Shown here: positions 82 through 62,619 of the stretch, piece by piece | How the letters are laid out: each line of letters begins with the position of its first letter | How positions within the stretch are numbered: position 1 is the stretch's first letter | NCBI RefSeq assembly: GCF_000768705.1 | Contig: NZ_AVPJ01000005.1 | Span: 1-64,000, forward strand | Length of the DNA stretch: 64,000 bases | From: Knoellia sinensis KCTC 19936 | Lineage (GTDB): Bacteria; Actinomycetota; Actinomycetes; Actinomycetales; Dermatophilaceae | Direction: 5' to 3' | Program-made: the position numbers and the translations under genes | Notes under the pieces: generated by a model | Told to the model about the DNA's origin: nothing | The model's database searches: none | The model's input: only the letters and a program-made list of their open reading frames with translations

Positions 82-1899
82 GTGACGAAAATCCTCAGCG
101 CTGTCGCCTGGCCCTACGCCAACGGTCCGCGCCACCTCGGCCACGTGGCCGGGTTCGGTGTGCCCTCCGACGTCTTCAGCCGCTACATGCGGATGGCCGG
201 GCACGACGTCCTCATGGTGAGCGGCAGCGACGAGCACGGCACGCCCATCCTCGTCCTCGCCGACAAGGACGGCGTCACCCCGCAGGAACTCGTCGACAAG
301 CACCACTCGACGATCGCGCACGAGCTCGCCGGCCTCGGCTGCTCCTACGACCTCTACACCCGCACGACGACCGCCAACCACTACTCCGTCGCGCAGGAGC
401 TGTTCCGCCAGGTCCACGCCAACGGCTACATGATCGAGCAGACGACCCGGGGCGCCATCAGCCCGAGCACCGGCCGCACCCTGCCCGACCGCTACATCGA
501 GGGCACGTGCCCCATCTGCGGTTACGCCGAGGCGCGCGGCGACCAGTGCGACAACTGCGGCAACCAGCTCGAGCCGACCGACCTCATCGACCCGAAGTCC
601 AAGATCAACGGCGAGACGCCCGAGTTCATCGAGACCCAGCACTTCTTCCTGGACCTGCCGGCGCTCGCCGACTCGCTGCGTGAATGGCTCGAGGGCCGCG
701 AGGCGAGCGGCACGTGGCGGCCCAACGTCATCAAGTTCAGCCTCAACATCCTCGACGACATCCGCCCGAGGGCCATGACCCGCGACATCGACTGGGGCAT
801 CCCGGTGCCGCTCGAGGGCTGGGAGGACCAGCCGGCCAAGCGCCTCTACGTCTGGTTCGACGCGGTCATCGGCTATCTCTCGGCGTCGATCGAGTGGGCC
901 CGCCGCATCGGCGAGCCCGAGCGCTGGCGCGAGTGGTGGGTCCAGGGCGCGGTCCCCGACGCTCAGGACTCGTACTACTTCATGGGCAAGGACAACATCA
1001 CCTTCCACTCGCAGATCTGGCCGGCAGAACTTCTTGCGTATGCCGGCCGTGGGACTCGCGGGGGAGAGCCCGGTCCGTTCGGGGTCCTCAACCTGCCGAC
1101 CGAGGTCGTGAGCAGTGAGTACCTCACGATGGAGGGCAAGCAGTTCAGCTCGAGCCGCGGTCACGTGATCTACATCCGCGACGTCCTCGAGCGCTACGGC
1201 CCCGACCCGATCCGCTACTTCATCTGCGCCGCCGGTCCCGAGAACCAGGACAGCAACTTCACCTGGGCCGAGTTCGTGCAGCGCAACAACTCCGAGCTCG
1301 TCGCGGGCTGGGGCAACCTCGTCAACCGCACCGGCGCCATGATCGCCAAGAACTTCGGCGAGATCCCGAAGCCGGGCACCCTCGAGCCGGTCGACGAGGC
1401 CGTCCGCGCTGCGACGCTCAAGGCCTTCGACACCGTCGGTGACCTCCTCGCCAACCAGCGCATCAAGGCGGCCATCAACGAGGCGATGCGGGCGGTCGGC
1501 GACGTCAACAAGTACGTCACCGACACCGAGCCGTTCAAGCTCAAGGGCGACGACCAGCGCGAGCGCCTCGCGACCGTGCTGCACACCCTCATCCAGTGCG
1601 TCAGCGACCTCAACACGATCCTCGCGCCGTTCCTCCCGCACGCGGCCAACCGGGTGCACGCGTTCATCGGCGGCGAGGGCGAGTTCATCCCGATGCCGCA
1701 CATCGAGGAGGTCAACGGGCTCGACGCGGGCGACAGGGACCGGACCTACCCGATCATCACCGGTGAATACAGTGCGACGCCCCGCTGGGAGTCCCGCCCC
1801 GTCACGGTCGGTGCACCCATCGCCAAGCCCACGGGAGTCTTCGTCAAGCTCGACGAGGCGGTCGTGGAGGAGGAGCTCGAGCGGCTCGAGCAGTCGTGA
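82..1899 (+). CDS. metG: Methionine-tRNA ligase
   Basis: Cytoplasmic class I aminoacyl-tRNA synthetase that charges tRNA-Met. The 605-residue product has the HIGH-type motif [11 protein letters not shown] at residues 11-21, the KMSKS-type element KQFSSSRG near residue 353, and a zinc knuckle of paired cysteines (CPICG and CDNCG) near residues 140-160. An anticodon-binding helical domain follows. It lacks the C-terminal tRNA-binding domain of the long MetG form, as is usual for short actinobacterial enzymes. The GTG at 82 fits the first conserved residues ([14 protein letters not shown]) and the -10 box six bases upstream. It overlaps tatD by four bases, so the two are probably co-transcribed. 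Confidence 0.97.
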
Positions 1900-2753
1900 C
1901 GCACTCCAACTCCAGCACCACGAGCCGCATGGTCGTCCCCGACCTGCCGGACGCGCTGCCGATAGCTGTCGTCGACAACCACACTCACCTCGACATCGAG
2001 CGTGAAGGCGTGGCCGTCGACGTCGCGGACCTGCTGGCCCGCGCCAAGGCGGTGGGCGTCGACCGGGTGGTCCAGATCGGTTGTGACCTCCCGGCAGCGC
2101 GCCAGACCGTTGAGATGATCGACACGTATGCCGCGATGCTGGGTGGCGTTGCTCTCCACCCGAACGAGGTGCCCGGGTTGGCGGCGAGCGGGAGTCTCGA
2201 CGCGGCATACGAAGAAATCGAGGAACTCGCGCAGCACCCCAGGGTGAGGGTCGTGGGGGAGACGGGTCTCGACTACTTCCGCACGGGTCCCGAGGGGCGC
2301 GACGTCCAGCACGAAAGCTTCCGCTGGCACATCGACCTGGCCAAGCGGCTCGACAAGGCGTTGCAGATCCATGATCGTGACGCCCACGCCGACGTCATGC
2401 GCATCCTCGAAGAGGAGGGTGCGCCGAATTCGACTGTGCTGCACTGCTTTTCGGGCGATCTCACCATGGCACAGGAGTGTGCGGAGCGGGGCTACTACCT
2501 GTCGTTCGCGGGGACGGTGACGTTCAAGAACGCCCATGGTCTCCGGGACGCACTCTCGGTCACGCCGCTCGACCGGCTGCTCGTCGAGACCGACGCGCCC
2601 TACCTCACGCCGCACCCCCACCGGGGCGCCGTCAACGCGCCTCACCTCGTGCCACTGACGGTCCGGGCCATGGCCGCCACCCTCGGGGTCGCGGTGCCCA
2701 CGCTGTGCGAGGCGCTGTCGGAGAACTCGGAGCGCGTCTACGGCCCCTGGTGA
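1896..2753 (+). CDS. tatD: TatD family metal-dependent hydrolase/DNase
   Basis: A 285-residue TIM-barrel amidohydrolase of the TatD family, whose members are metal-dependent 3'-5' exonucleases and deoxyribonucleases. Visible family motifs are DNHTHLD (metal ligands, near residue 28), GETGLDYF, a QIHDRDAH segment, HCFSGD and [14 protein letters not shown] near the C-terminus. The GTG start overlaps the metG stop (GTGA), which indicates translational coupling. metG-tatD-rpf-rsmA is a standard actinobacterial order. The physiological substrate is not evident from sequence. Confidence 0.93.
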
Positions 2754-2990
2754 CACCCGTGGGCCAGGTCACCGTTATCAAAATTTGACCTTTGCAGGGA
2801 TTGACGTCATGGTGGATGGGTTGGCCGGAGCTGGGCTCCGGGCGAAGACAGGGGCGAGGACGCCGGTATTCACACCGTGCGCACCTCGCTCTCCTGTTGC
2901 CGGGACTCCTCCCCTGTGGAGCCCCGCGGTCCACCCCTGAAGGACTGTCGCCCGCCCCGGTGTCCGGAGAGTTCGATCATCGGAGCACTC
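2754..2990 (+). promoter_or_regulatory. Leader/intergenic region upstream of rpf
   Basis: About 237 bases between tatD and the chosen rpf start. It holds a comparatively A/T-rich patch near 2778-2790 and two TTGAC-type hexamers (2788 and 2802). Past about 2820 it is G/C-rich with the potential hairpin CCGGAGCT/GGGCTCCGG. I looked for the ydaO (c-di-AMP) riboswitch common before actinobacterial rpf genes and did not find its conserved core. It is probably a 5' untranslated leader. Confidence 0.35.
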
Positions 2991-4239: not shown

Positions 4240-4986
4240 TCACGTCCGCTTGCGCGCGGACAGGCCCTCGATGAGGAGGTCGAGGCCGAGCTCGTACTCG
4301 TAGCCCACGCCCGCCTCGTGGTCCTCCCCCGGGGGGCCACCGACGTAGCCGCCCGAGAGGATGAGCGGGGCTGCGAACGGTAGCCGCTCGGGGGTGATGA
4401 CCGATCCCAGCTCCGCCATCGCCTGGGGTCCGAACTCGAGGTCCTCCTGCCCGGCGAGGTCTCGTTCGAGAGCTGCGAAGGATGACACGTAGGAGCTGAC
4501 GATGAGGATGATCGAGATGCGATCCCGGTCGTCGAGCTCGAGGGGTGCGAGAACCTGCAGCCCTTGGTCGACCAGGGCCACGGACGCCGGCATGAGGACC
4601 GAGGTGGGGCCCCGCCGGATGTCGAGAAGCCAGGGGTGGGCGGCATACATTTCGCGCAACGAACCCGCCCATTCGCGCAGGCCCGCCTTCCAGTCGTCGT
4701 GCCCGGCCGGCGCCTCGGGGAGGATCGTCTCCGATCCGACCATGAGCATGAAGAGCTCGTCCTTGTTGGCGACGTAGCGATAGAGCGACATCGTCGTGAA
4801 GCCGAGCGACTCGGCGAGTCGCTGCATCGTGACCCCGCTCAGCCCCTGCTCGTCGGCGATCTCGATCGCCTTGGCGACGATCTTCTCGTGGCTCATGCCC
4901 CGCCGTGGTCCGCTCTGCGGCTGCGCGTGGGTGCCCCACGCGATCGCGACTGCGCGTGGCAGTCCGCTCTCGGTCACCTCACCCAT
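4240..4986 (-). CDS. TetR family transcriptional regulator
   Basis: A 248-residue repressor-type regulator. The N-terminal helix-turn-helix reads GVTMQRLAESLGFTTMSLYR, followed by the YVANKDEL segment typical of TetR proteins; the C-terminal ligand-binding part is variable. The ATG at 4986 is chosen over an upstream start at 5046 because the extra 20 residues would run through the intergenic operator region. It is divergent from the ABC transporter genes at 5054, with about 67 bases between them, so it very probably represses that pump and itself. The ligand is unknown. A GTATGCC word lies just upstream. Confidence 0.88.
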   Translation of the reverse strand: MGEVTESGLPRAVAIAWGTHAQPQSGPRRGMSHEKIVAKAIEIADEQGLSGVTMQRLAESLGFTTMSLYRYVANKDELFMLMVGSETILPEAPAGHDDWKAGLREWAGSLREMYAAHPWLLDIRRGPTSVLMPASVALVDQGLQVLAPLELDDRDRISIILIVSSYVSSFAALERDLAGQEDLEFGPQAMAELGSVITPERLPFAAPLILSGGYVGGPPGEDHEAGVGYEYELGLDLLIEGLSARKRT

Positions 4987-5065
4987 GCGAGCACTGTATG
5001 CCGTCCGCTCACCAACTGTGTACAACGCACTCTGTGTATGCCACACTCAGTATATGACGTACACA
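4987..5065. promoter_or_regulatory. Divergent promoter/operator, tetR-ABC
   Basis: This short region has two direct repeats, CACTCTGTGTATG at 5028-5040 and CACTCAGTATATG at 5044-5056, and an inverted pair TGTGTAC (5017-5023) / GTACACA (5059-5065). It is more A/T-rich than its surroundings. The position between tetR and the pump genes fits TetR operators. The exact half-sites are inference. Confidence 0.5.
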
Positions 5066-9045: not shown

Positions 9046-10064
9046 CCGCAGTCGCCTCGGTGGCCGAGGAGACCGAGCAGTCTCCGCTCGGTGTCGTCCG
9101 AGAGACCGCACCGTCTCGGGTTGGTCGCCTCTCGAACTTCTTCGTATGCCGTCGCGTCCCGGAGCGTGTCCGCCACCGGTCGGTGGGTGAGTCCGGCCGC
9201 CCGCGCCGCAGCTCCAGTGTGTCCGCCGAAGCCGCGCCACTGCGGGTCCGAGATCCACAGCGGCAGGCTGTCCTCGCCCATCCATTCCTGGACGCCGTGC
9301 TCGCTGAGCCAGTCCGTCGCGGCCGGGACGACAGGGCCCTCATGCCCGGCGACGTCGCGCGCCGCGTTCAACAGCGTCCCCAGGGTGCTTGGCTCGCCGA
9401 CGGCATCGAAGACCCCAGAGGTCCCGGCCCCGGCGCAACGCACGAGCCACGCGGCGAGGTCACGGACGTCGATGATCGACATGGGCAAGGCGGGGTCGTC
9501 CGGGGTCAGCACCGCACCATCGGCGCCCACGGGATGCGCGAACCGCCATGGCCACCACCCCGAGCGCCCGGTCGCGTCGCCGGGGCCCCCGATGAGCCCC
9601 GCGCGAGCGATGAGGGACCGCTCCTTCCCGAACCCCGAGAGCACCGCAGCCTCGCACGCGACCTTGGCCTCGCCATAGGTCGTCATGTCCTCCATGACGT
9701 CACCGTCCAACGGTGACAAGAGCGGAACCGACTCGTCGGTCGCGAGACCGGAGTGGACGGCATACACGTTGCCTGTCGACACGAAGACGAAGTGCGCCGT
9801 CAGCGGTTCGAGAGCGGCGACGGCTCGGCGCACCTGACCCGGTTGGCGTGAGACGTCGATGACGGCGTCCCACCGTTCGCCTGCGCCGGTGACGCCGTCA
9901 AGTCCACCGTCGAGGTCGCGGTCGCCGCGGACCCAGGTGACGCCGTCGGGGACGTCACCGGTGACGCCGCGCGCCAGACACGTCACGTCGTGGCCCTGCG
10001 ACACCGCCTCCTCGACAATCGCGCGTCCGAGCATGGCCGTCCCACCGAGCACGAGAAGTCGCAT
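9042..10064 (-). CDS. NAD-dependent epimerase/dehydratase-like protein
   Basis: A 340-residue extended short-chain dehydrogenase/reductase. The N-terminus carries a Rossmann motif LLVLGGTAMLGRAIVEEAV; the middle has the Thr/Tyr region FVFVSTGNVYA and TYGEAKVACE, close to the YxxxK catalytic pattern; it ends with a substrate domain. ATG at 10064 starts directly at the Rossmann strand, and the upstream in-frame ATG would add 12 unconserved residues. Similar proteins in actinobacteria are annotated as reductases or epimerases without a known substrate. It is convergent with 8530 and divergent from ispE. Confidence 0.8.
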   Translation of the reverse strand: MRLLVLGGTAMLGRAIVEEAVSQGHDVTCLARGVTGDVPDGVTWVRGDRDLDGGLDGVTGAGERWDAVIDVSRQPGQVRRAVAALEPLTAHFVFVSTGNVYAVHSGLATDESVPLLSPLDGDVMEDMTTYGEAKVACEAAVLSGFGKERSLIARAGLIGGPGDATGRSGWWPWRFAHPVGADGAVLTPDDPALPMSIIDVRDLAAWLVRCAGAGTSGVFDAVGEPSTLGTLLNAARDVAGHEGPVVPAATDWLSEHGVQEWMGEDSLPLWISDPQWRGFGGHTGAAARAAGLTHRPVADTLRDATAYEEVREATNPRRCGLSDDTERRLLGLLGHRGDCG

Positions 10065-10158: not shown

Positions 10159-11091
10159 ATGACCTCGGCTCACTCGGACCCGGCGCCCGTCACGGTGCGC
10201 GTGCCCGCCAAGGTCAACCTCGAACTTCTCGTGGGGCCCCTGCGGGACGACGGCTTCCACACGTTGTCGACCGTCTATCAGGCGGTGAACCTGCACGACG
10301 ACGTCACGGTCGCGGTCAACGACGAGTGGGCGTGCAGTGTCGTGGGGCCCTATGCCGACGTCGTGCCGACCGACTCGAACAATCTGGCGGTGCGCGCCGC
10401 CCGGCTCCTCGCCGACGAGACAGCCATCGACACGCCGGTCCACGTGACCATCAACAAGTCGATCCCCGTCGCGGGCGGCATGGCCGGTGGTTCGGCCGAC
10501 GCCGCCGCGGCTCTTGTGGCCTGCGACCGGTTGTGGTCGCTCGGTCTGACGACCGAAGAGCTCGAGGAGTATGCCGCCGAGCTGGGTTCCGATGTCCCGT
10601 TCCTCATTCGCGGTGGCACGGCGATGGGGAGTGGTCGGGGCGAACGGCTCGCGCCGGTCCTGGCGCGTGGGAGCTATCACTGGGTCTTCGCGATCAGCGA
10701 CATCGGCCTGTCCACGCCCGACGTCTATGCCGAGTGCGACCGGCTGCGGGGCAAGGCTGTCGTGCCCGAGCCCAGGCCCAACTCCGAGCTCATGAGCGCC
10801 CTGCGCACGGGCGACCCGCACGTTCTCGCCCCACAGCTCTCCAACGACCTCCAGGACGCCGCGATCAGCCTGCGCCCCGAGCTCGGCAGTCTCCTCGAGA
10901 GCGGCATGGAGTTCGGCGCGCTGGGTGGCGTCGTGTCCGGTTCCGGTCCCACGGTGGCCTTCCTCGTCGAGGACGTGGAGGCGGCGATCGACCTCACCGT
11001 GGCCCTCACCGCCACCGGTGCGGCACGCGAGGTCCGCAAGGCCGTCGGCCCCGTGCACGGCGCGCACGTCATCCCCGCCCGGGTCGACTAG
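10159..11091 (+). CDS. ispE: 4-(cytidine 5'-diphospho)-2-C-methylerythritol kinase
   Basis: IspE phosphorylates CDP-methylerythritol, the fourth step of the MEP isoprenoid pathway, in the cytoplasm. The 310-residue GHMP kinase has the N-terminal substrate motif VRVPAKVNLELLVG, the ATP loop PVAGGMAGGSADAAAA at about residues 104-119, and the C-terminal GVVSGSGPTVAFL loop. Length is normal. Its stop overlaps the GTG of the following ABC-F gene by one base (TAGTG), so the two are coupled, as in related genomes where ispE follows rsmA. Confidence 0.95.
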   Translation: MTSAHSDPAPVTVRVPAKVNLELLVGPLRDDGFHTLSTVYQAVNLHDDVTVAVNDEWACSVVGPYADVVPTDSNNLAVRAARLLADETAIDTPVHVTINKSIPVAGGMAGGSADAAAALVACDRLWSLGLTTEELEEYAAELGSDVPFLIRGGTAMGSGRGERLAPVLARGSYHWVFAISDIGLSTPDVYAECDRLRGKAVVPEPRPNSELMSALRTGDPHVLAPQLSNDLQDAAISLRPELGSLLESGMEFGALGGVVSGSGPTVAFLVEDVEAAIDLTVALTATGAAREVRKAVGPVHGAHVIPARVD

Positions 11092-12977
11092 TGGCCGTCC
11101 TCATCTCGGTCGAGCGCGCTGCCCTCGCGCTCGGCACCGCTCAGGTGCTCGACGGCGTGTCCCTCGGCGTCGCCGGGGGCGACCGCATCGGCATCGTCGG
11201 TCGCAACGGTGGTGGCAAGACCACACTCCTGCGGGTCCTCGCCGGGGACCGCACCGTGGACAGCGGACGAGTCGCCCGACTCGGGGGTGCGACGGTCGGC
11301 GTCCTGACCCAGGACGACACCCTCGATCCGTCGGCCACGGTTCGCGAGGTCGTCCTCGGCGACCGGGCCGAGCATGTCTGGGCGGGTGACGCCCGAATCC
11401 GCGACGTCCTGACGGGCCTCCTCGGCGGTATCGACGCCCCCGCTGTCGGTGGGCTCGACTCGACGGTGGACGGCAAGTCCGGTGGTGAGCGCCGTCGACT
11501 CGGCCTGGCCCAGTTGCTCGTCGACGACCCCGACGTCCTGCTCCTCGACGAGCCGACGAACCACCTCGACGTCGAAGGTGTCGCGTGGCTCGCCGAACAC
11601 CTCGTGCGGCACCGCTCGCGGCCCGACAACGCGCTCGTCGCCATCACCCACGACCGCTGGTTCCTCGACGCCGTCGCCACCCGAACGTGGGAGGTCGTCG
11701 ACGGGCAGGTCAACGGGTTCGACGGTGGCTACGCGGCCTATGTGTTGGCGAAGGCGGAGCGCGAGCGGATGGCTCGGGTCACGGCAGAGCGTCGCAACAA
11801 TCTGCTCCGCAAGGAACTCGCCTGGCTGCGTCGCGGGGCACCTGCGCGGACGTCGAAGCCGAAGTTCCGGATCGACGCCGCCAACGCCCTCATCGAGGAC
11901 GTGCCGCCGCTGCGCAACGACGTCGAACTCATGGCGTTCGCGACGACGCGGCTGGGCAAGGACGTCATAGATCTCTTGGATGCCTCGGTGGCGGTCGGCG
12001 ACCGAGTGCTGCTCGACCGCATCACGTGGCACCTCGCGCCGGGCGCTCGGATCGGCATCGTCGGCGTGAACGGCTCGGGCAAGTCCACGTTGTTGCGGGC
12101 GCTGGCAGGGGAGGTGCCGTTGGCGTCGGGCAAGCGCAAGCAGGGCGTCACCGTCCGCATCGGTCACCTCACCCAGGAGGTCCGCGAACTCGATCGTCTC
12201 GCCGACAAGCGGGTCATCGAGGCCGTCGAGGAGGTCCGCAAGGTCACCGTCCTCGCCGGCAAGGAGGTCACGGCGTCGACGCTCGCGAAGCGGCTCGGTT
12301 TCCCCGGTCCTCGCCAGCAGACCCGCGTCCGCGACCTCTCCGGTGGTGAGCGCCGCCGGCTCCAGGTGCTGCGCATCCTCATGGACGAGCCCAACGTGCT
12401 CCTCCTCGACGAGCCAACGAACGACCTCGACATCGAGACGCTGACCTCGCTCGAGGACGTCCTCGACGGCTGGGCAGGCACGCTGCTCGTTGTCTCGCAC
12501 GACCGCTATCTGTTGGAGCGCATCGCCGACGAGCAGGTCGCACTTCTCGGTGACGGTCGGGTGCGGCAGCTGCCCGGCGGTGTCGAAGAGTACCTCCGCC
12601 TCCGCGCCACGATCACCCCCTCGTATGCCGTGAGCGCACCTTCGTCCGCCGCTGCACCTTCCGCCTCGCAGCCTTCCTCGCAACGTCAGCGAGAAGGGTC
12701 GCAAGAGGAGCCGTCCGCGCTGACGCAAGGGAGTCCGGCGAGTGCGCCGACGGCGACGCCGGCGGAGCAGCGCGAGGCCCGCAAGGTCATGGCCCGCGTC
12801 GAGAAGCAGCTGTCCAAGCTGGCGCAGCGCGAGGAGAAGATCCACGCCGCGATGACCGAGCACGTGAGCGACCACGCGAAGGTGCTCGAACTCAACACCG
12901 AGTTGCGCGGCATCGTCGACGAGCGCGAGGGTCTCGAACTCGAGTGGCTCGAGGCAGCGGAGGTCCTCGAGAGCTGA
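11091..12977 (+). CDS. ABC-F family ATPase
   Basis: A soluble 628-residue protein with two ABC domains and no membrane segments. ABC-F proteins act on ribosomes in translation control or antibiotic protection. Domain 1: Walker A GRNGGGKTTLL, signature SGGERRRLGLAQ, Walker B LLLDEPTNHLD. An inter-domain linker follows (about 230-300). Domain 2: GVNGSGKSTLL, LSGGERRRLQVL, LLLDEPTNDLD. A low-complexity stretch (about 510-560) and a charged C-terminal coiled coil close the protein. It is part of the ispE operon. The housekeeping position argues against a recent resistance gene, though some homologues protect from antibiotics. Confidence 0.92.
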   Translation: MAVLISVERAALALGTAQVLDGVSLGVAGGDRIGIVGRNGGGKTTLLRVLAGDRTVDSGRVARLGGATVGVLTQDDTLDPSATVREVVLGDRAEHVWAGDARIRDVLTGLLGGIDAPAVGGLDSTVDGKSGGERRRLGLAQLLVDDPDVLLLDEPTNHLDVEGVAWLAEHLVRHRSRPDNALVAITHDRWFLDAVATRTWEVVDGQVNGFDGGYAAYVLAKAERERMARVTAERRNNLLRKELAWLRRGAPARTSKPKFRIDAANALIEDVPPLRNDVELMAFATTRLGKDVIDLLDASVAVGDRVLLDRITWHLAPGARIGIVGVNGSGKSTLLRALAGEVPLASGKRKQGVTVRIGHLTQEVRELDRLADKRVIEAVEEVRKVTVLAGKEVTASTLAKRLGFPGPRQQTRVRDLSGGERRRLQVLRILMDEPNVLLLDEPTNDLDIETLTSLEDVLDGWAGTLLVVSHDRYLLERIADEQVALLGDGRVRQLPGGVEEYLRLRATITPSYAVSAPSSAAAPSASQPSSQRQREGSQEEPSALTQGSPASAPTATPAEQREARKVMARVEKQLSKLAQREEKIHAAMTEHVSDHAKVLELNTELRGIVDEREGLELEWLEAAEVLES

Positions 12978-13003
12978 GCACCCGGCATACGCGCCCTGCT
13001 TGT

Positions 13004-14904: not shown

Positions 14905-15720
14905 ATGCGCACACAGCCGAGCTGGGATCCCACGGCATACGCACAGTTCGGGGAGCAGCGCGGACGTCCCTTCGCCGACCTCATCGCCCAGGTGCGCGCC
15001 GATGCCCCGGCCCTCGTCGTGGACCTCGGGTGCGGCAACGGGCCGGCCACCCTCACGCTCGGACAGCTGTGGCCCGACGCCCGGATCGTCGGTGTCGACG
15101 CCGCGGAGTCGATGCTCGAGGCAGCCCGTGCCCTCGACAAGGACGACCGGGTCGAATGGGTTCAGGCCGACCTCATGGACTGGGACCCGGCCACCCTCAG
15201 CCAGGCGCCTGACGTCATCATCACGAACTCGACGCTCCAGTGGGTGCCCGGGCATCTCAACCTCCTCCCCACCTGGGTCGACGTGCTGGCGCCCGGCGGC
15301 TGGCTGGCCCTGCAGGTTCCCAACAACTTCGACGCGCCCAGCCACGCGCTCATGCGCGAGTCGGCCGGCACGCACGCCCGCGCCAACGAACTGCTCGCCG
15401 CCCTCGACCTCCCGGCCGTCGGCGAGCCCAAGACCTACCTCACCTTCCTCAGCCGCCTGGGGTGCACGGTCGACGCGTGGGAGACGGTCTATTCACATGT
15501 CCTCGACCCGGAGGGTGCGTCGGAGAACCCGGTGCTCGACTGGGTCAGCGCGACCGGACTGCGGCCAGTCCTCGACATCCTTCCCGAGGGCGAGGAACGC
15601 GACGCCTTCCTCGAGCCGTATGCCGCGGCCCTCGAAGAGGCCTATCCCCGCAGCGAGGTCGGCGTGCTCTTCCCCTTCCGCCGCGTCTTCGCTGTCGCTC
15701 GAAAGAACGAGGCCAACTGA
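14905..15720 (+). CDS. tam: Trans-aconitate 2-methyltransferase
   Basis: A 271-residue SAM-dependent methyltransferase that esterifies trans-aconitate, a toxic isomer formed from the citric-acid-cycle intermediate cis-aconitate. SAM motif I VVDLGCGNGPAT lies near residues 36-47; ITNSTLQWVPGH and GGWLALQVPNN match the Tam subfamily. AGGGAAGGG about four bases before ATG 14905 is the ribosome site. The divergent tamR gene and operator indicate induction by aconitate-like ligands. The next gene (VOC) begins within its stop codon. Confidence 0.9.
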   Translation: MRTQPSWDPTAYAQFGEQRGRPFADLIAQVRADAPALVVDLGCGNGPATLTLGQLWPDARIVGVDAAESMLEAARALDKDDRVEWVQADLMDWDPATLSQAPDVIITNSTLQWVPGHLNLLPTWVDVLAPGGWLALQVPNNFDAPSHALMRESAGTHARANELLAALDLPAVGEPKTYLTFLSRLGCTVDAWETVYSHVLDPEGASENPVLDWVSATGLRPVLDILPEGEERDAFLEPYAAALEEAYPRSEVGVLFPFRRVFAVARKNEAN

Positions 15721-16188: not shown

Positions 16189-16842
16189 TCAGACGTGGGT
16201 GATGGTCGGCTTCGACTCGAGGCCGGCGAGGCCGTTCCACGCGAGGTTCACCAGCGCCGCGGCGACGTCACGCTTCTTGGCCTTCGGGTTCTCCAGCCAC
16301 CACTGACCGGTGAGGGCCACCATGCCGACGAGCATCTGCGCATACATCGGCGCCTGCTTGGGGTCGAGTCCACGGGTGGTGAACTGCGCCGCGAGCAAGT
16401 GCTCGACCTGGGAGGCTACGTCCGACATGAGCGAGGCGAAGCTGCCGGTCTGCTGCCCGGGCGGCGAGTCGCGCACGAGGATGCGGAAGCCGTCCGTCGA
16501 TGTCTCGATGTAGTCGAGCAGCGCCATCGCGGCACGTTCCAGCAGCACCCGTGACCCGCCCTCGGAGGCGAGCGCACCGGCGATCGCCCCGAGAAGTGAC
16601 TGGATCTCGCGATCGACGATCACGGCATACAGGCCTTCTTTGCCGCCGAAGTGCTCATAGACAACCGGCTTGGACACCCCGGCAGCACTCGCGATCTCCT
16701 CGACCGTCGTCGCCTCGTAGCCGCGGTTCGCGAACAGCTGCCGGCCGATGCCGATGAGCTGCTCACGCCGCTGGGCTCCGGTCATTCGCCCCCGCGGAGT
16801 GCGCACCTTGGTCACTGCCTGGTCTCGACTCACTCGCCCCAT
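16189..16842 (-). CDS. TetR family transcriptional regulator
   Basis: About 217 residues. The N-terminal DNA-binding domain reads YEATTVEEIASAAGVSKPVV then YEHFGGKEGLYAVIVD, a textbook TetR helix-turn-helix. The C-terminal domain ends with WNGLAGLESKP, a motif also seen as WNGFASYTAES in the TetR gene at 41732, so the two are the same subfamily. ATG 16842 is a reasonable start; 16863 is possible. No divergent target gene is adjacent; the tRNA gene lies upstream. Targets unknown. Confidence 0.85.
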   Translation of the reverse strand: MGRVSRDQAVTKVRTPRGRMTGAQRREQLIGIGRQLFANRGYEATTVEEIASAAGVSKPVVYEHFGGKEGLYAVIVDREIQSLLGAIAGALASEGGSRVLLERAAMALLDYIETSTDGFRILVRDSPPGQQTGSFASLMSDVASQVEHLLAAQFTTRGLDPKQAPMYAQMLVGMVALTGQWWLENPKAKKRDVAAALVNLAWNGLAGLESKPTITHV

Positions 16843-16945
16843 TCTGCCCTGCCCGCGGACCACTCACCGCGGGGACCGGGCGAACCTCACGCTCGGGTCA
16901 ACTACCCTTGTCCGTCGTATGCCGTGAGCTCGCCTCGCGCATCGA

Positions 16946-17637: not shown

Positions 17638-18294
17638 ATGACGGTGGAGAGGTGGGAGCGGCGCTCTGAGGTGCCGCTGATCTTGCTGGCCCTCGCGTTT
17701 CTCGTGGCCTACGCGTGGCCCGTGCTCGACCCCCGCATGGATCCGGACACACGAACCATCCTCGGTGCGGTGTCGTGGACGGTCTGGGGCGCCTTCGCCG
17801 TCGACCTGGTCATTCGGCTCGTGCTGGCCGAGGACCGACGCGAGTATGCCGTGCGGCACTGGTACGACGTCGCTCTCGTCCTCCTGCCCTTGCTCCGTCC
17901 TCTTCGGGCGCTTCGACTGCTCGCCTTGGTGCGAATCCTCGATCGATCCGCCGCGAACAGCCTCGCGGGGCGGGTGCTGGTCTACGTGGCCGGCGCGGCG
18001 TCACTCGCGGTCGGTCTGAGTGCGCTCGCGGTCCTCGACGCGGAGAGGGACGCAGAGGGCGCGAACATCACGACTTTCGGAGATGCGCTGTGGTGGGCCT
18101 GCACCACCGTGACGACAGTCGGCTACGGGGACCGATTCCCCGTCACGACAGAGGGTCGCGTCGTCGCGGTGGCGCTGATGCTCCTCGGCATCGGGCTCGT
18201 GGGCTCGGTGATCGCGACCGTGGCGACGCTGATCCTCCAGAGAGTCGCAGCCGAGCAGGCCGCCGAGGCTGCCGAAGGAGAGCACCGGCGATAG
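17638..18294 (+). CDS. Voltage-gated potassium channel-like protein
   Basis: A 218-residue single-subunit six-segment K+ channel of the Kv/KvAP type. Hydrophobic segments start near residue 12. An S4-like voltage-sensor helix with regularly spaced Arg (RPLRALRLLALVRILDR, residues 87-103) and the selectivity filter TVTTVGYGD (158-165) are clear. A pore-lining segment (about 174-200) and a short Ala/Glu-rich cytoplasmic tail follow. It is divergent from the TmrB-like gene with 45 bases between starts. Confidence 0.92.
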   Translation: MTVERWERRSEVPLILLALAFLVAYAWPVLDPRMDPDTRTILGAVSWTVWGAFAVDLVIRLVLAEDRREYAVRHWYDVALVLLPLLRPLRALRLLALVRILDRSAANSLAGRVLVYVAGAASLAVGLSALAVLDAERDAEGANITTFGDALWWACTTVTTVGYGDRFPVTTEGRVVAVALMLLGIGLVGSVIATVATLILQRVAAEQAAEAAEGEHRR

Positions 18295-22836: not shown

Positions 22837-23385
22837 TCAGCTGTTCTGACGAGCCCTGTATGCCGCGACGTGGGCCTTGTTGGCGCACGTCCCGTCGCAG
22901 TAGCGCCGGCTTCGATTCTTCGTGAGGTCGATGACGACGTCGTCGCAGTCGTCGGCGGCGCACACCCGTAGGCGTTCCGTCTCGCCCATGCGGATGAGGT
23001 CCACGATGGCCATGGCTGCCTCGACCGCCATGCGGTTGGCGAGCGGGGCTTCGTCGTCAGTGGCGTGGATGTGCCAGTCCAGGTCGTCGTGACGGACGAG
23101 CCGGGGGAGGGCGTGGTGCTCGGCGAGCAGTTCGTTGACTCCGTCGACGAGGCCCTCGACGTCGCGGCCCCAGAGCTCGCGCAGGCGCGGGCGCAGCGCG
23201 TGCACGGCCTCGAGCTCCGCCCGGGTCCGAGGCTTGCGGCCGCTCCACCGCCACTGGTCGAAGAACCAGACCAGGGCCTCGATCGTCGGCAGATCCTCCT
23301 CCATCGAGTCGCCGAACCCGCGCTCCGTGTTGATGAGCGCGGTGGCGTGCTGAAGGGTCAGCTCTGTGTCAGATGCAAAAACCAT
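22837..23385 (-). CDS. CGNR zinc-finger (ABATE-type) regulator
   Basis: A 182-residue protein with an N-terminal ABATE-like domain (NTERGFGDSMEEDLPT region) and a C-terminal CGNR-type zinc finger, CAADDCDDVVIDLTKNRSRR then YCDGTCANKAHV, whose cysteines are spaced for metal binding and probably DNA binding. ATG 23385 is preferred to 23400 because AGGAG lies five bases upstream. It is divergent from an EamA exporter gene; the plus-strand promoter at 23387 abuts its start, so it is the likely regulator of that exporter. Confidence 0.88.
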   Translation of the reverse strand: MVFASDTELTLQHATALINTERGFGDSMEEDLPTIEALVWFFDQWRWSGRKPRTRAELEAVHALRPRLRELWGRDVEGLVDGVNELLAEHHALPRLVRHDDLDWHIHATDDEAPLANRMAVEAAMAIVDLIRMGETERLRVCAADDCDDVVIDLTKNRSRRYCDGTCANKAHVAAYRARQNS

Positions 23386-44441: not shown

Positions 44442-45296
44442 ATGGCCAGCAACCCGGCCTTCAACCGAATGGAGCAGGACGCGCAGTCCGGCTACGCCGC
44501 CTTCCAGGAGCCCGGCCGCGGCGCCAACCCGGGCAACGTGTCGTACGCCCAGCAGGCTGGGGTCGACGCGTACTCGCAGCAGCAGCTCCAGGACATGTAC
44601 AACCAGCCGTCCGCGGGTCCGGTCGACACCGGCCGCGTGACGATGGACGACGTCATCATGAAGACGATGGGCCTGTTCGCTCTGGTCCTCGGCTTCGGCG
44701 CCGTCGGCTGGGTCGTCTCGGCCGCCAACCCGCAGATCGGCTTCATGCTGTGGATGGGCGGCATGATCGCCACGCTCATCCTCGGTCTCGTCATCGCGTT
44801 CAAGAAGACCCTGAGCGTTCCGCTCATCGTCGGGTATGCCGTCGTCGAGGGCCTGTTCGTCGGTGCGGTGTCGCAGTTCTTCGAGCAGCAGTGGGACGGT
44901 GTGGTGCCGCTCGCTGCGATGGCCACGGCCGGAACCTTCATCGGCATGTTCCTCGCCTACAAGGTCGGCCTGATCAAGGTCACCGCGAAGTTCCGCCGCA
45001 TCGTGACGATGATGATCTTCGGCTACGCGATCTTCGCGGTCATCAACTTCATCTTCGCGATGGTCACGAATACGCCATTCGGATTCGGTGGGACTGGCTG
45101 GCTCGGCATCGGCATCTCGCTGTTCGCCGTCGGCCTTGCGTCGGTCTCGCTGGCGCTCGACTTCGACATGATCGAGCGCGCCATCGCGACCGGCGCTCCC
45201 CAGAAGTACAGCTGGCTCCTCGCGCACGGCCTCATCGTCACGGTGGTCTGGCTCTACATCGAGTTCCTGCGCCTCTTCGCCCGCATGCGCGAGTGA
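44442..45296 (+). CDS. Bax inhibitor-1/YccA family membrane protein
   Basis: A 284-residue inner-membrane protein. A soluble Gln/Tyr/Gly-rich N-terminus (1-65) is followed by seven hydrophobic segments in the pattern of the BI-1/YccA (LifeGuard) family, including MTMDDVIMK-type entry, YAVVEGLFVGAVSQFFE and ALDFDMIERAI near the end, where an Asp is part of the family's pH/calcium-sensing region. GGAGG about six bases before ATG 44442. It may leak ions or assist membrane proteases. Confidence 0.88.
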   Translation: MASNPAFNRMEQDAQSGYAAFQEPGRGANPGNVSYAQQAGVDAYSQQQLQDMYNQPSAGPVDTGRVTMDDVIMKTMGLFALVLGFGAVGWVVSAANPQIGFMLWMGGMIATLILGLVIAFKKTLSVPLIVGYAVVEGLFVGAVSQFFEQQWDGVVPLAAMATAGTFIGMFLAYKVGLIKVTAKFRRIVTMMIFGYAIFAVINFIFAMVTNTPFGFGGTGWLGIGISLFAVGLASVSLALDFDMIERAIATGAPQKYSWLLAHGLIVTVVWLYIEFLRLFARMRE

Positions 45297-45679: not shown

Positions 45680-46748
45680 CGGGTTCGGCCGGTGAGGCGT
45701 TCCGGGTGGACGCGTCGACCTGTTCGACCTCGTCGGTCTCGGGGTCGCGCGCCGCGGGAACGGCGTCGGGACGGCGACGCAGCAACACGGCCCAGCGGCC
45801 GCGAGGACCTCTGGCCTGGCCGCCCACCTCGGTCGGCGCAACCTCGGTGCCCGCGTCCTTGACCGCCTGGCCGGCCGCGACGGCGACCGGGCCGACACCT
45901 TCGCCACGCCGTGCCTCCGGGGCGCGGTCCGCAGTGTCGTGACCCCACACCCCCAGGGCAGCGCACACCGATGGAAGCAGGGCTGCCGCAGCCCGGGCAT
46001 AACCGGCCGCGGACGGGTGGAAGCGATCCTCCGAGAACATCGTCCGCGGCGACGCTGCGAACTCCTTGCCGAGCAGGTCACCCAACGACACGGTGCGCCC
46101 GCCGGCCTCCACCACCGCGACGGTCTGGGCCGCTGCCAGGTCCCGACTCCACCGACGCGCGAGCAAACGTAGGGGCTGGGCCAGCGGCTCGATCGTCCCG
46201 AGGTCGGGGCAGGTGCCGACGACGACCTCACTTCCGAGCGCGCGAGCCCGGCGGACCGTGATCTCGAGGTGCCGCACGGCCGTCGCCCGGTCGATCCGGT
46301 GGGTGACGTCGTTCGCGCCCACCATGATGACCACGACGTCCGGGACGTCGATCGACTCGAGTCCCTGCGCGAGTTGGCGCTCGAGGTCGCTCGACTCGGC
46401 ACCCACGACGGCGCGGTTCGTCAGGTGCACACGGCGACCCAGCAGAGCAGCGACACCATTGGCCACGATCCCACCGACGGTCTCGTGTGGGTGCTTGGCG
46501 CCCATGCCCGCGGCACTCGAGTCGCCGAGGACGAGGATCTCGATTGGGTCCCCGGGGCCGGCGCCATAGGTGCCGTCGTCATCGGGTGACGAGTCGAAGG
46601 GTGTCCCCACGATGCGCCGAGCGAGCATGGCCTCGCCCTTGATGACGCCGTAGCCCACGGCGCCCAGCGCAGCAGTCGCCGCGGCCAGGCCGCCACCCCC
46701 GTATGCCGCGGTCGCCGCGATCTTGCGTGCCCGTCGTGCCCGTCCCAT
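45672..46748 (-). CDS. SGNH/GDSL-type hydrolase
   Basis: About 358 residues. An N-terminal membrane helix (near 10-35) is followed by an SGNH hydrolase domain: block I LGDSSAAGMG with the catalytic Ser, Gly in block II, VGANDVTH (block III Asn) and EDRFHPSAAGYARAA with the Asp/His pair. The C-terminal 100 residues are low complexity. It is likely a membrane-anchored esterase or lipase facing the wall. ATG 46748 has GGAGGG 11 bases upstream; the longer start 46793 is also possible. Confidence 0.85.
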   Translation of the reverse strand: MGRARRARKIAATAAYGGGGLAAATAALGAVGYGVIKGEAMLARRIVGTPFDSSPDDDGTYGAGPGDPIEILVLGDSSAAGMGAKHPHETVGGIVANGVAALLGRRVHLTNRAVVGAESSDLERQLAQGLESIDVPDVVVIMVGANDVTHRIDRATAVRHLEITVRRARALGSEVVVGTCPDLGTIEPLAQPLRLLARRWSRDLAAAQTVAVVEAGGRTVSLGDLLGKEFAASPRTMFSEDRFHPSAAGYARAAAALLPSVCAALGVWGHDTADRAPEARRGEGVGPVAVAAGQAVKDAGTEVAPTEVGGQARGPRGRWAVLLRRRPDAVPAARDPETDEVEQVDASTRNASPAEPAD

Positions 46749-46826
46749 GTGGTCGTCCACCCTCCTTGAAGTCTCGTCCACGCTAACGCTCACCGCCGAC
46801 GCTCACGTTCCCATCCGGCATACCAA

Positions 46827-46918: not shown

Positions 46919-48295
46919 ATGAAGTATGCCGAGCACATCGTCGACCTCGTGGGCAACACCCCGCTCGTGAAGCTGAACTCCGTGACCGACGGAATCGCCG
47001 CGACCGTCCTCGCCAAGGTCGAGTACATGAACCCCGGTGGGTCCGTGAAGGACCGCATCGCCCTCAAGATGGTCGAGGCCGCAGAGGCCTCCGGCGCCCT
47101 CAAACCGGGCGGCACCATCGTCGAGCCGACGAGCGGCAACACCGGCGTCGGTCTCGCCCTGGTGGCTCAGCGCAAGGGCTACAAGTGCATCTTCGTCTGC
47201 CCCGACAAGGTGAGTGAGGACAAGCGCAACGTCCTCAAGGCCTACGGCGCCGAGGTCGTCGTCTGCCCGACCGCCGTCGCGCCCGACCACCCGGACTCCT
47301 ACTACGAGACGTCCGACCGCTTGGTCCGTGAGACCGAGGGAGCGTGGAAGCCCGACCAGTACTCCAACCCCAACGGTCCCGCCTCGCACTACGAGACCAC
47401 CGGCCCCGAGATCTGGAACGACACCGACGGCGAGCTCACGCACTTCGTCGCAGGCGTCGGCACCGGCGGCACGATCACGGGCACGGGCCGCTACCTGCGC
47501 GAGGCCTCGGCCGAGCGAGAGGGCGGGCGCGTCCAGATCATCGGCGCCGACCCCGAGGGCTCCGTCTACTCCGGCGGCACCGGGCGTCCCTACCTCGTCG
47601 AGGGTGTGGGGGAGGACTTCTGGCCGAGTGCCTACGACCCCGAGGTCGTCGACCGGATCGTCGCCGTGTCCGACGCCGACTCGTTCGACATGACCCGCCG
47701 CCTCGCCCGCGAGGAGGGCCTGCTCGTCGGTGGCTCGTGCGGCATGGCCGTCGTCGCCGCGCTCGAGGTCGCCAAGGACCTGCCCGCCGAGGCCACCGTC
47801 GTCGTCCTGCTCCCGGACTCCGGCCGCGGCTACATGAGCAAGATCTTCAGCGACGACTGGATGAGCTCCTACGGCTTCATGCACACCGACGGCGAGACGA
47901 CGGTCGGCCACGTGTTGCACGCCAAGTCCGGGGACATGCCTGCCCTCGTGCACACGCACCCCAACGAGACGATCCGCGACGCCATCGAGATCCTGCGCGA
48001 GTACGGCGTCTCGCAGATGCCCGTCGTCAAGGCCGAGCCGCCCGTCATGACCGGCGAGGTGGCCGGCTCCGTGAGCGAGCGCGACCTGCTCGAGCTGCTC
48101 TTCCTCGGCAAGGCGACCCTGCACGACTCCGTCGAGAAGCACATGGGCAAGGGGCTTCCGCTCGTCGGCGCCGGTGAGCCCGTCGCCACGGCCCGACACG
48201 AGCTCGAGCACGCGGACGCCGTCCTCGTCATCGAGGACGGCAAGCCCGTCGGCGTCCTCACTCGGGTCGACTTCCTGGGTCACCTCGTCGACTGA
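46919..48295 (+). CDS. cbs: Cystathionine beta-synthase
   Basis: A 458-residue PLP enzyme that condenses serine and homocysteine in the transsulfuration route. The catalytic domain has VGNTPLVKL, NPGGSVKDRIA with the PLP-binding Lys, TSGNTGVGLALVA and the phosphate loop GTGGTITGTG. Two C-terminal CBS domains (about 335-458) may sense adenosyl ligands and distinguish it from plain cysteine synthase. GGGAGG lies seven bases before ATG 46919; the longer frame runs through the palindrome. metB at 60085 supplies the following or reverse step. Confidence 0.93.
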   Translation: MKYAEHIVDLVGNTPLVKLNSVTDGIAATVLAKVEYMNPGGSVKDRIALKMVEAAEASGALKPGGTIVEPTSGNTGVGLALVAQRKGYKCIFVCPDKVSEDKRNVLKAYGAEVVVCPTAVAPDHPDSYYETSDRLVRETEGAWKPDQYSNPNGPASHYETTGPEIWNDTDGELTHFVAGVGTGGTITGTGRYLREASAEREGGRVQIIGADPEGSVYSGGTGRPYLVEGVGEDFWPSAYDPEVVDRIVAVSDADSFDMTRRLAREEGLLVGGSCGMAVVAALEVAKDLPAEATVVVLLPDSGRGYMSKIFSDDWMSSYGFMHTDGETTVGHVLHAKSGDMPALVHTHPNETIRDAIEILREYGVSQMPVVKAEPPVMTGEVAGSVSERDLLELLFLGKATLHDSVEKHMGKGLPLVGAGEPVATARHELEHADAVLVIEDGKPVGVLTRVDFLGHLVD

Positions 48296-48311: not shown

Positions 48312-48357
48312 AAGGCCGCGTATGCCGGGAAGCCACCTTCCCGGCATACGCGGCCTT
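48312..48357 (+). terminator. Terminator built from an inverted GTATGCC pair
   Basis: A perfect 21-bp stem: AAGGCCGCGTATGCCGGG... (48312-48332), loop CCAC, complement at 48337-48357. Each arm contains one copy of the dispersed GTATGCCGG word. It lies 17 bases after the cbs stop. Confidence 0.9.
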
Positions 48358-48908: not shown

Positions 48909-48967
48909 CCGGGGAGCCACGCCCGACCACTGAGGTGGGCGGACGGCATACCGGATCGAGAGCAGGA

Positions 48968-49006: not shown

Positions 49007-51124
<2,118 letters not shown>

Positions 51125-58116: not shown

Positions 58117-58809
58117 TCAGGCAGGCGGCGCGATGTCTGTCTGCGCGGGCAGGTTCGCGACGCCGACGGGGCAGGTCAGCCCGTTCGGTCCGTGGTTGCA
58201 GTAGCCGTTGGGGTTCTTGTGGAGGTACTGCTGGTGGTAGTCCTCCGCGTAGTAGAACGTGCCCGCCTGGGTCGCCGGCGTCAGCTGCGTCGTGATCTCT
58301 CCGGCACCGACCCGCGTCAGCTCGCCCTGGAACGCGTCGTGGGTCGCCCGGGCGGCCGCCTCCTGTTCCGGTGTGGTCCAGAAGATCGCGGACCGGTATG
58401 CCGTGCCGATGTCGTTGCCCTGCCGGTTCGCCGTCGTGGGGTCGTGGTTCTCCCAAAAGGCCTTGAGGAGCAGTTCGGGGGTCGTCGCGGCCGGGTCGTA
58501 GGCGACGAGGACTGACTCGGCATGACCGGTGCGCCCGGTGCAGGTCTCCTCGTAGGTCGGGTTGGGCGTGAAACCGCCCATGTAGCCCGCGGCTGTCGTC
58601 ACGACACCCGGCAACTGCCAGAAGATGCGCTCGGCACCCCAGAAACACCCCATCGCGACGTAGAGGACCTGAGTGCCGTCCGGCCACGGCCCTTCGAGCG
58701 GCGTCCCGAGGACCTCGTGCGTCGCAGGCACGACGAATGGCCGCGTCGAGCGTCCGGGCAGCGCCTCGGCGGCGGTGGGCATCGTGGTCTTGGCGCGCGA
58801 ACCGAACAT
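58117..58809 (-). CDS. msrA: Peptide-methionine (S)-S-oxide reductase
   Basis: MsrA repairs oxidised methionine in proteins. The 230-residue product has the active-site motif [12 protein letters not shown] (catalytic Cys at about residue 55), [20 protein letters not shown] and FWENHDPTT. The C-terminal region has further Cys ([15 protein letters not shown]) that can serve as resolving residues with thioredoxin. GGAGGAG five bases before ATG 58809 fixes the start. The gene is monocistronic. Confidence 0.95.
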
Positions 58810-60009: not shown

Positions 60010-60084
60010 GCGAGCGAAGCCAGCCGGACCACCAGACGCCCGGCGGCCGACGACGGAGGCGAGCACCCGGCATACCCTGTCGTC

Positions 60085-61284: not shown

Positions 61285-61287
61285 CCT

Positions 61288-62619
61288 GTGCCTTCTCATG
61301 ATGCAGGGCTCGTCCTCTGCGTCGACGTCGGCTCGACCTTCACCAAGGCCGTCCTCGTCGACGTGACAACTGGCGCGCTCGTGGGTGCCGCATCGTCGCC
61401 GACGACCGTCGCCACCGATGTCATGGACGGAGTCGATTCCGTATGCCGTGAGCTCGCCTCCCACGGACCCGTCACCGAGACGCTCGTGTGCAGTTCTGCG
61501 GGCGGCGGGTTGCGGATCGCCGTCGTGGGATACGAGCGTGAGGTCACGGCCGAGGCCGGCCACCGAGTGGCGCTGTCGGCGGGCGGGCGAGTGGTGCACG
61601 TGTCGGCGGGGCCGTTGTCGGGGGAGGGTGTGCGGGAGCTTCGCGCCGCCTCGCCCGACCTCGTGCTCTTGGTGGGTGGCACTGACGGTGGCAACGCGGA
61701 TGTGTTGCGGCACAACGCCACTCGCCTCGCCAATGCGCGGCTCAAGGCGCCCATCGTCGTGGCTGGCAATGCAGATGCAGCCGACGAGGTGTCGGCGGAG
61801 CTGTCGCGCACCGACCGTCGGCATGTCGTCACGAGCAACGTTCTTCCACGCATCGGCGTCATCGCACCCGAGGCTGCGCGGGCCGCGATCCGCGAGGTGT
61901 TCCTCGAGCACGTCATCGGCGGCAAGGGGCTGTCGCGTGGGCGCGGCTTTGCCGAGTTGGTGCGCGCGGCAACTCCGGACGCGGTGTTGCGAGGTGTCGA
62001 GCTACTGGCGGACGTGCGCGGCGAGGACGTCATGGTCATCGATGTCGGCGGCGCGACGACTGACGTCTATTCGGTGATCCGGCCCCAGGGTGAGGACGCC
62101 GAGATCGAACGCGACGTCGCCGGAACCCTGTGGCACGAACGCACTGTCGAGGCCGACCTCGGCATGCGGTGGAACGCCCTCGGCATCCTTGAAGCAGCCG
62201 AGCGCGAGCACCTTCCGCTGTCACCAGACACTGCCGCGTATGCCGGTCACGTCGCCTCCGAGACCGCTCACCGGGCCTCATCGCCGGGGGAGTGGGACGC
62301 AGAGGGGGAGTTGGCTCGGGTCGCTGCGGTCGTGGCGGCCCGTCGCCACGGACGACCCCGCGTGGTGGGGGACCGGCCGCGGCCGTTGGCGGACGTGGGC
62401 CTGGTGCTCGGCTCGGGAGGGGTATTCCGTCACGGACCGGACGGACTCGCGGAGTCGGCGTTGGGCGCGGTCGGGACCGACCACGCCGGCGGGTGGACGG
62501 TTCCGGCGGATGCGACGCGAGGCGTCGACACGGCATACGTGCTCTTTGCCTGTGGGCTCCTCGCCGACACGCATCCGGCGGCAGCACGGGCGCTTGCCGA
62601 GACCGTCGCTCGGGGGTAG
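61288..62619 (+). CDS. glmL: GlmL/MutL family protein (glutamate mutase-associated)
   Basis: A 443-residue actin-like ATPase-fold protein of the MutL/GlmL family, normally found with adenosylcobalamin glutamate mutase and probably a reactivator. Landmarks are LCVDVGSTFTKAVLVDVTTG, CSSAGGGLRIAVVGYERE, LVLLVGGTDGGN and VMVIDVGGATTDVYSVI. It starts GTG 61288, three bases after the metB stop. The mutase subunits are not in the window, so its partner is elsewhere or it has another role. Confidence 0.85.
   Translation: MPSHDAGLVLCVDVGSTFTKAVLVDVTTGALVGAASSPTTVATDVMDGVDSVCRELASHGPVTETLVCSSAGGGLRIAVVGYEREVTAEAGHRVALSAGGRVVHVSAGPLSGEGVRELRAASPDLVLLVGGTDGGNADVLRHNATRLANARLKAPIVVAGNADAADEVSAELSRTDRRHVVTSNVLPRIGVIAPEAARAAIREVFLEHVIGGKGLSRGRGFAELVRAATPDAVLRGVELLADVRGEDVMVIDVGGATTDVYSVIRPQGEDAEIERDVAGTLWHERTVEADLGMRWNALGILEAAEREHLPLSPDTAAYAGHVASETAHRASSPGEWDAEGELARVAAVVAARRHGRPRVVGDRPRPLADVGLVLGSGGVFRHGPDGLAESALGAVGTDHAGGWTVPADATRGVDTAYVLFACGLLADTHPAAARALAETVARG

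Follow-up and report, generated by a model that had tools for sequence, protein, structure and literature searches.

In the literature examined, DNA uptake words, tags by which a cell selects the free DNA that it imports, are described only for the Gram-negative Neisseriaceae and Pasteurellaceae; what we say of published systems, here and below, draws on excerpts of the papers cited. The DNA uptake sequences (DUS) of Neisseriaceae, whose receptor is ComP, are present in ~1,900-5,900 copies per genome, within genes and between them, and form eight dialects, several of them one base apart (PMC3630211). The uptake signal sequences (USS) of Pasteurellaceae combine a short, sharp core with flanks that matter, and Haemophilus influenzae carries 1,465 core copies with AT-rich flanks (PMC7811141). 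A 2026 terminator paper covering thousands of genomes found uptake words in the terminators of both families (PMC13020248). Here we report on the 8-mer GTATGCCG, which recurs throughout a 64-kb stretch of DNA from Knoellia sinensis KCTC 19936 (family Dermatophilaceae; "the window" below means this whole stretch), and we consider it quite likely that a DNA uptake word, serving natural transformation, has GTATGCCG as its core.

The words described here, GTATGCCG and three others that we counted in each of 186 Dermatophilaceae genomes (GGATGCCG, GTACGCCG and CGAAGGGGG), resemble DUS in their copy number, in standing both within and between genes, and in that some of them are one base apart. Simonsiella muelleri, with two neighbouring DUS dialects, has its counterpart in two of our genomes (G084 and G085), and inverted pairs, which are numerous in all DUS dialect genomes and suggest terminators, are found here likewise (PMC3630211). 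Unlike DUS, the words are unrelated in sequence, belong to Gram-positive actinobacteria of ~70% GC in which the type IVa pilus is as a rule absent (PilT over cut-off in 2/186 family genomes), and include one lineage with an unrelated word. They share with USS a short, sharp core and flanks that matter (PMC7811141), but core, phylum and envelope are different, and in place of two AT tracts the Knoellia flanks have one T at +8, another at +18 and an excess of A from -11 to -7. The words appear to match the genomic hallmarks of DUS and USS that can be tested in Knoellia, in a different phylum and with different pili. Micrococcus luteus is also an actinobacterium with comEA/comEC and tad clusters, and its Flp/Tad transformation needs two tad clusters, with the comEA/EC locus tested alongside them (PMC4322843). 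The terms "uptake sequence" and "sequence-specific" are absent from the main text of that paper and from a 2026 paper on M. luteus competence (PMC12849477).

A frequent word maintained as DNA in Knoellia

The preliminary description of the window had reported about 46 copies of GTATGCC, nearly all followed by G, and we found exactly 46, of which 45 have G next. GTATGCCG itself occurs 45 times, 25 on the + strand and 20 on the - strand, so that its presence on both strands held while the + strand figure of 26 did not. Dinucleotide shuffles of the window gave 0.89 expected copies (maximum 4) and a third-order Markov model 1.9, and under the latter GTATGCCG was the top 8-mer of the window. The whole genome (G000; 3,987,063 bases in 61 contigs, the window being the first 64 kb of one of them) carries 1,251 + 1,234 = 2,485 copies, compared to 35 + 33 = 68 of the reversed word, which was our control for word counts. 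The earlier claim of over-representation, which was to be abandoned if a third-order Markov model accounted for the count, stands, as a G000 sample of 340,906 letters (333,427 of them A, C, G or T) holds 215 copies compared to 10.1 expected. In copy number, GTATGCCG therefore behaves as a word of the DUS/USS type does, with hundreds to thousands of copies spread genome-wide, far above the Markov expectation.

The sites in the window are as follows, each located by exact match unless an alignment or a fold is named. Genes were called with simple callers of our own, with no annotation used.

1038..1045, +: GTATGCCG
2126..2133, +: GTATGCCG
2203..2210, -: GTATGCCG
4641..4648, -: GTATGCCG
4996..5003, +: GTATGCCG, extended form GTATGCCGTCC
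9144..9151, +: GTATGCCG
9758..9765, -: GTATGCCG, extended form GTATGCCGTCC
10569..10576, +: GTATGCCG
12623..12630, +: GTATGCCG, extended form GTATGCCGTGAG
12983..12990, -: GTATGCCG
14933..14940, -: GTATGCCG
15618..15625, +: GTATGCCG
16623..16630, -: GTATGCCG
16917..16924, +: GTATGCCG outside called genes, extended form GTATGCCGTGAG
17844..17851, +: GTATGCCG
21702..21709, -: GTATGCCG
22858..22865, +: GTATGCCG
24527..24534, -: GTATGCCG outside called genes, extended form GTATGCCGTCC
25656..25663, -: GTATGCCG outside called genes, extended form GTATGCCGTCC
25720..25727, +: GTATGCCG
27859..27866, +: GTATGCCG in mfd, extended form GTATGCCGTCC
28787..28794, -: GTATGCCG in mfd, contains one of the gene's two ATA codons
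29687..29694, -: GTATGCCG in mfd, contains the second ATA codon of the gene
30599..30606, +: GTATGCCG
31405..31412, +: GTATGCCG, left arm of an intragenic inverted pair
31419..31426, -: GTATGCCG, right arm of the intragenic inverted pair
36919..36926, -: GTATGCCG, 3 mismatches in each of 3 aligned congeners (alignment)
37983..37990, -: GTATGCCG outside called genes
38268..38275, +: GTATGCCG outside called genes, kept in 4/4 aligned congeners (alignment)
40966..40973, +: GTATGCCG, extended form GTATGCCGTCC, kept in 7/7 aligned congeners (alignment)
41466..41473, -: GTATGCCG, extended form GTATGCCGTGAG, kept in 6/7 aligned congeners (alignment)
43163..43170, +: GTATGCCG
44834..44841, +: GTATGCCG
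46701..46708, +: GTATGCCG
46816..46823, -: GTATGCCG outside called genes
46924..46931, +: GTATGCCG
48312..48357, no strand: hairpin of two inverted words, 48320-48327 (+) and 48342-48349 (-) (fold)
48320..48327, +: GTATGCCG, left hairpin arm
48342..48349, -: GTATGCCG, right hairpin arm
48944..48951, -: GTATGCCG outside called genes, extended form GTATGCCGTCC
49834..49841, +: GTATGCCG
58396..58403, +: GTATGCCG
60068..60075, -: GTATGCCG outside called genes
61441..61448, +: GTATGCCG, extended form GTATGCCGTGAG
62238..62245, +: GTATGCCG
62531..62538, -: GTATGCCG

The details reported earlier were borne out, since mfd has exactly two ATA codons, both within GGCATACGTGA, GTATGCCGTGAG is found at 12623, 16917 and 61441 (with one more copy on the - strand at 41462), and GTATGCCGTCC, said to occur at least six times, was counted seven times in the window. 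Across the G000 sample, 158/215 sites are genic and 122/158 of these coding sites read Tyr-Ala or Ala-Tyr, while 15/32 ATA codons and 73/404 TAT codons lie inside the word.

We then compared the window, by alignment, to five congeners at ~82% identity. The word was intact at 144/175 comparable places, 111/139 genic and 33/36 intergenic, compared to 98/272 for control 8-mers that encode the same dipeptides with no word, and 27-32% for all 8-mers. A smaller congener comparison gave 33/41 sites kept. The word was present only in G000 at 31 places and only in a congener at 25, so gains and losses are about balanced. These findings show for Knoellia what had been proposed from the window, namely that selection acts on the DNA rather than the protein: the word is maintained at the DNA level, in coding and intergenic DNA alike. 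Its copies favour neither strand nor replichore, the replichores being followed in G003, a single-contig complete genome whose arms were set by GC skew. The earlier suggestion to map orientation against replication yielded strand counts of 49/39 and 76/66 for the two arms, leaving out the stretch at position 1 (10/11), with no flip between them, so the word is unlike Chi or the FtsK-orienting polar sequences (KOPS). Sense and antisense copies are both common within genes (84/74 in G000, 112/100 in G003), which argues against an RNA signal, and spread along the genome is near random, with a 5-kb variance/mean of 0.86 and 1.11.

GTATGCCG is denser between genes than within them, at 1.19 vs 0.54 per kb in G000, where the N's of the sample were counted as intergenic and the intergenic density is thus underestimated, and at 0.91 vs 0.59 in G003. 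The same was found for GGATGCCG (1.90 vs 0.76 in G033, 2.36 vs 1.25 in G082) and CGAAGGGGG (1.15 vs 0.23). At unpaired intergenic Knoellia sites (n=42), T is present at +8 in 74% and at +18 in 67%, ten bases or one helical turn apart; A is raised in the Knoellia flank from -11 to -7, including -8 in the unpaired intergenic sites, and even in the main coding frame (n=73), where +18 is a wobble base, T accounts for 40%. All 215 site contexts of 68 bp differ, with only scattered flank positions conserved, and sites do not share sequence beyond the core by descent, as a transposable or REP-like (repetitive extragenic palindromic) element would.

Most sites are single and do not form hairpins. The G000 sample has 9 opposed intergenic GTATGCCG pairs less than 60 bp apart, and for 8 of these a gene 3' end lies no more than 40 bp away; the G003 sample has 8 such pairs, 4 near a gene 3' end. 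GGATGCCG forms intergenic pairs as well (2 in G033, 3 in G082), as does CGAAGGGGG (2 in genera g63 and g67). The inverted pairs take the form of terminator-like hairpins, as expected of an uptake word. In the window, 48308-48368 folds as one long hairpin (-48.7 kcal/mol, z -11.4), and the left word of the 48312-48357 hairpin begins 24 bp past a stop codon, making this hairpin a likely, if putative, intrinsic terminator.

Dialects within Dermatophilaceae

LeuS of G000 shares 93% identity with the Knoellia subterranea protein. All eight further Knoellia genomes examined carry 1,971-3,277 copies of GTATGCCG. The comparison across the order that had been proposed covered 396 genomes, 35 in the family and 361 from 18 other families, and showed that GTATGCCG is confined to one family, Dermatophilaceae: none of the 361 genomes outside it exceeds 180 copies, and the control count of that top genome is 195. 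Named loci of at most 23 kb with GTATGCCG include those of Knoellia, Phycicoccus elongatus (26), Terrabacter (13), Intrasporangium chromatireducens (10), Ornithinimicrobium (6 and 9), Serinicoccus (7) and Flexivirga (8), among others. Loci of Mobilicoccus and Intrasporangium flavum have one copy each, and those of Janibacter indicus, two Austwickia and one Ornithinicoccus have zero. Another 47 loci (968 kb, mostly Streptomyces) hold 13 copies in total.

Other words came to light in samples of some family members that lack GTATGCCG, and were then counted across the family. To assign dialects in the 186 family genomes, we chose our own thresholds per Mb of 100 for GTATGCCG, 500 for GGATGCCG, 300 for GTACGCCG and 200 for CGAAGGGGG, and entered counts of the last three only for genomes judged near or above threshold. 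Densities were used because the overlap of GCCGTATG with GCCGTATGCCG probably raises the reversed-word control of some genomes, a point reached by reasoning rather than computation. At least one of the four words is present in 142/186 genomes and exactly one in 140, which comprise 106 with GTATGCCG alone, 10 with GTACGCCG, 5 with GGATGCCG and 19 with CGAAGGGGG. Two words at once were found only in G084 and G085, and these are the one-letter neighbours GTATGCCG and GGATGCCG. Seven genomes from three genera carry GGATGCCG at 2,099-4,480 copies, and ten from six genera carry GTACGCCG, at its own threshold, at 1,125-4,185. All four words are non-palindromic. Lineage-specific words in related species, as in the DUS dialects, are thus found here with four words.

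CGAAGGGGG is unrelated to the other three words and is present in two sister genera, with 797-1,860 copies in 16/16 g63 genomes and 1,317-1,939 in 3/3 g67 genomes; every family genome outside them has at most 80. Since the Janibacter indicus locus holds 9 copies of CGAAGGGGG in 17.7 kb, g63 is probably Janibacter. We had considered a loss of the system in g63 and g67, and dropped this reading since all 19 genomes carry CGAAGGGGG; a loss of the word in G118 was likewise rejected, as it carries 1,463 copies of GTACGCCG. None of the four words was found in G065 and G141. A TadA-B-C tree of 21 genomes, which is a pilus-gene tree and not a species tree, places GGATGCCG in two separate branches, one beside the GTATGCCG genome G028 and the other near Knoellia.

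No word stands out clearly in the 12 genomes of genus g2, two of which (G181 and G009) show raised GGATGCCG counts of 1,210 and 1,336. In 40 kb of G181, AACGGCAA is also raised (12 vs 0.2). It is possible that g2 has a fifth dialect or a fading one. In G030 (L028, L029), strong local repeats masked GTACGCCG in the first scan, and the genome-wide count is 2,216.

Competence genes and tad clusters

In G000, comEA (SLBB, HhH) adjoins comEC, and three tad clusters are present. Cluster c1 encodes Flp-type pilins, TadE, CpaE and TadA-C; cluster c2 we take to be of the helicase/secretion neighbourhood type; and cluster c3 encodes TadA-C, a small pilin-like protein without a Pfam match, two TadE-like proteins and one TadG-like protein. 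The competence machinery that an uptake word calls for is thus present, but it is not specific, as word-less genomes carry comEC and tad genes too. A missing or weak c3 TadB is more frequent among word-less genomes (14/44) than word-bearing ones (10/142; Fisher p 8.9e-5, uncorrected for relatedness), an association that could arise from relatedness alone. We also considered the c3 operon as a discriminator of dialects and rejected it, since its pilin genes are present, among the matches listed, in GT and GG genomes as well as in word-less ones.

At the c3 locus itself of G118 (L246) and G033 (L241), the pilin part after tadC is unmatched and other genes are found there, including in G033 a gene for a protein with a tandemly repeated unit. 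In the c2 cluster (L198:5945-7312, G000 C22), two genes recognized by eye, one sortase-like and the other for a surface protein that is repetitive and acidic, sit between TadC and a DUF4244 pilin-like gene.

A probable uptake word and its alternatives

An uptake word fits best because it would account together for the dialects, the inverted-pair hairpins, the helical spacing of the flanks and the presence of competence and tad genes. Under this reading, the word would mark DNA of the cell's own kind. Free DNA that bears it would be bound best by a receptor at the cell surface, located on a Tad/Flp-type competence pilus or next to one, ComEA and ComEC would then import one strand, and recombination with the chromosome would follow. 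Fragments that bear the word would be imported and recombined more often, so that the word would spread and be kept wherever the protein or terminator tolerates it. When the receptor's preference shifts between lineages, the dialect would change, as may have happened towards GGATGCCG at least twice (by the pilus-gene tree), towards GTACGCCG, and towards the unrelated CGAAGGGGG in the Janibacter-like genera. The uptake preference, the receptor and the recombination drive are what we infer from the genomes.

Several findings weigh against an uptake word. One-mismatch neighbours of the word occur at 0 to 6-fold, mostly 1 to 3-fold, of expectation; DUS and USS also drop steeply from zero to one mismatch, but their one-mismatch forms stay clearly over-represented (PMC1939737). 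Other genera have C at -1 in common with Knoellia, but not T at +18. In 15 kb of genus g54 compared between G084 and G082, only 3/9 fully aligned GGATGCCG sites are intact and 0/7 aligned GTATGCCG sites are a word of either kind in G082, which suggests a faster turnover there or a rewriting with the dialect. None of the four words is present in 44/186 family genomes. GTACGCCG is the weakest dialect case, because it is also composed of preferred Tyr-Ala codons (22/27 sampled sites in G059 are in the Tyr-Ala or Ala-Tyr frame); it shows no intergenic excess (0/27 sites in G059, 3/27 in G118), and no intergenic pair was found in the sampled genomes. As for the machinery, comEC is present in 180/186 family genomes, word or no word, and therefore cannot explain which genomes carry a word, and tad c1 to c3 are also present in genomes that lack all four words. 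Of the ten word-bearing genomes without a strong c3 TadB match, eight (G004, G008, G075, G109, G125, G145, G148 and G151) are at least 94% complete, and no receptor emerged among the comEC, PilT and c3 TadB candidates in the 186 family genomes.

The main rival is a word like highly iterated palindrome 1 (HIP1), which a methyltransferase and methylation-linked repair or marking would generate and preserve, with words that differ as methyltransferases differ. HIP1 and its alternates are frequent 8-mers of cyanobacteria that seem to be replaced in some lineages, as here, and that track cognate methyltransferases (PMC4390886). Strand neutrality, maintenance as DNA and a low count in one phage would fit this rival too: phage TJE1 of Tetrasphaera jenkinsii (49 kb, 58% GC) has 2 copies of GTATGCCG vs 2 of the control and 7 of GGATGCCG vs 5. 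However, the HIPs of that paper are palindromes, unlike our words, and the model as set out there gives no role to hairpins near gene ends, to the intergenic rise or to flanks reaching +18 (PMC4390886). We therefore retain a methylation role, one of those proposed from the window, as an unlikely alternative. The uptake word, also among those roles, fits best, while a recombination or segregation site is disfavoured. The many copies in the genome and their even spread would fit a Chi site of AdnAB/RecBCD, a KOPS of FtsK or another architecture word. Chi and KOPS have an orientation relative to replication. G003 shows no such bias, and neither dialect switching within a genus nor inverted-pair hairpins would be expected, so that this reading seems very improbable.

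We give just as little weight to a word bound by some abundant protein of the nucleoid or of regulation, or to a terminator element spread through genes. Inverted pairs near gene 3' ends and the strong hairpin at 48312-48357 speak for it, but most sites are genic, in both orientations, and the core is sharp with most sites single. Finally, the count might be put down to the usage of codons or dipeptides, or to a dispersed repeat element, given the Tyr-Ala and Ala-Tyr reading of most coding sites and the dispersed palindromic intergenic repeats that exist in G000. For GTATGCCG this is refuted by an intergenic density above the coding one, the poor retention of dipeptide-matched controls, the share of rare ATA codons inside the word and the differences among all 215 flanked sites, and we regard it as next to impossible.

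With slightly more caution, we also consider it likely that in Dermatophilaceae sequence-specific DNA uptake arose independently for a third time, and for the first time in Gram-positive bacteria. The words would be read by a Tad-type competence system, and their at least four near-exclusive dialects, of which CGAAGGGGG is unrelated to the other three, would hinder the exchange of genes from one genus to another. The preliminary description knew of no such word in actinobacteria, and in open-licence PubMed Central (PMC) listings we found no paper naming the word as a genomic repeat or as an actinobacterial uptake word; GGATGCCG, GTACGCCG and CGAAGGGGG were not searched as text. If confirmed, it would be the first uptake word in Gram-positive bacteria as far as these searches show. 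Self-marking of DNA would then have evolved again, with other pili and unrelated words. Two switches to the same one-letter dialect, one full word replacement and two genomes with two dialects would make a natural experiment that helps to find the receptor and to test genetic isolation by dialect. Natural transformation, poorly known in actinobacteria, would become testable in many genera, and the words would show which DNA actinobacteria accept.

The longest word-free stretch of the window spans 8.6 kb (49842-58395). Its genes encode an FMN oxidoreductase, the members of a two-component pair, a protein of 652 aa that has no Pfam match and an ABC transporter ATPase; there was no sign of phage or transposon among the six region proteins scanned. 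Dispersed intergenic palindromic repeats of ~65 bp lie at 44241-44309, 45614-45679 and 46827-46894 of the window and have many relatives across G000 and its congeners. These three copies are without the word and resemble REP or terminator hairpins.

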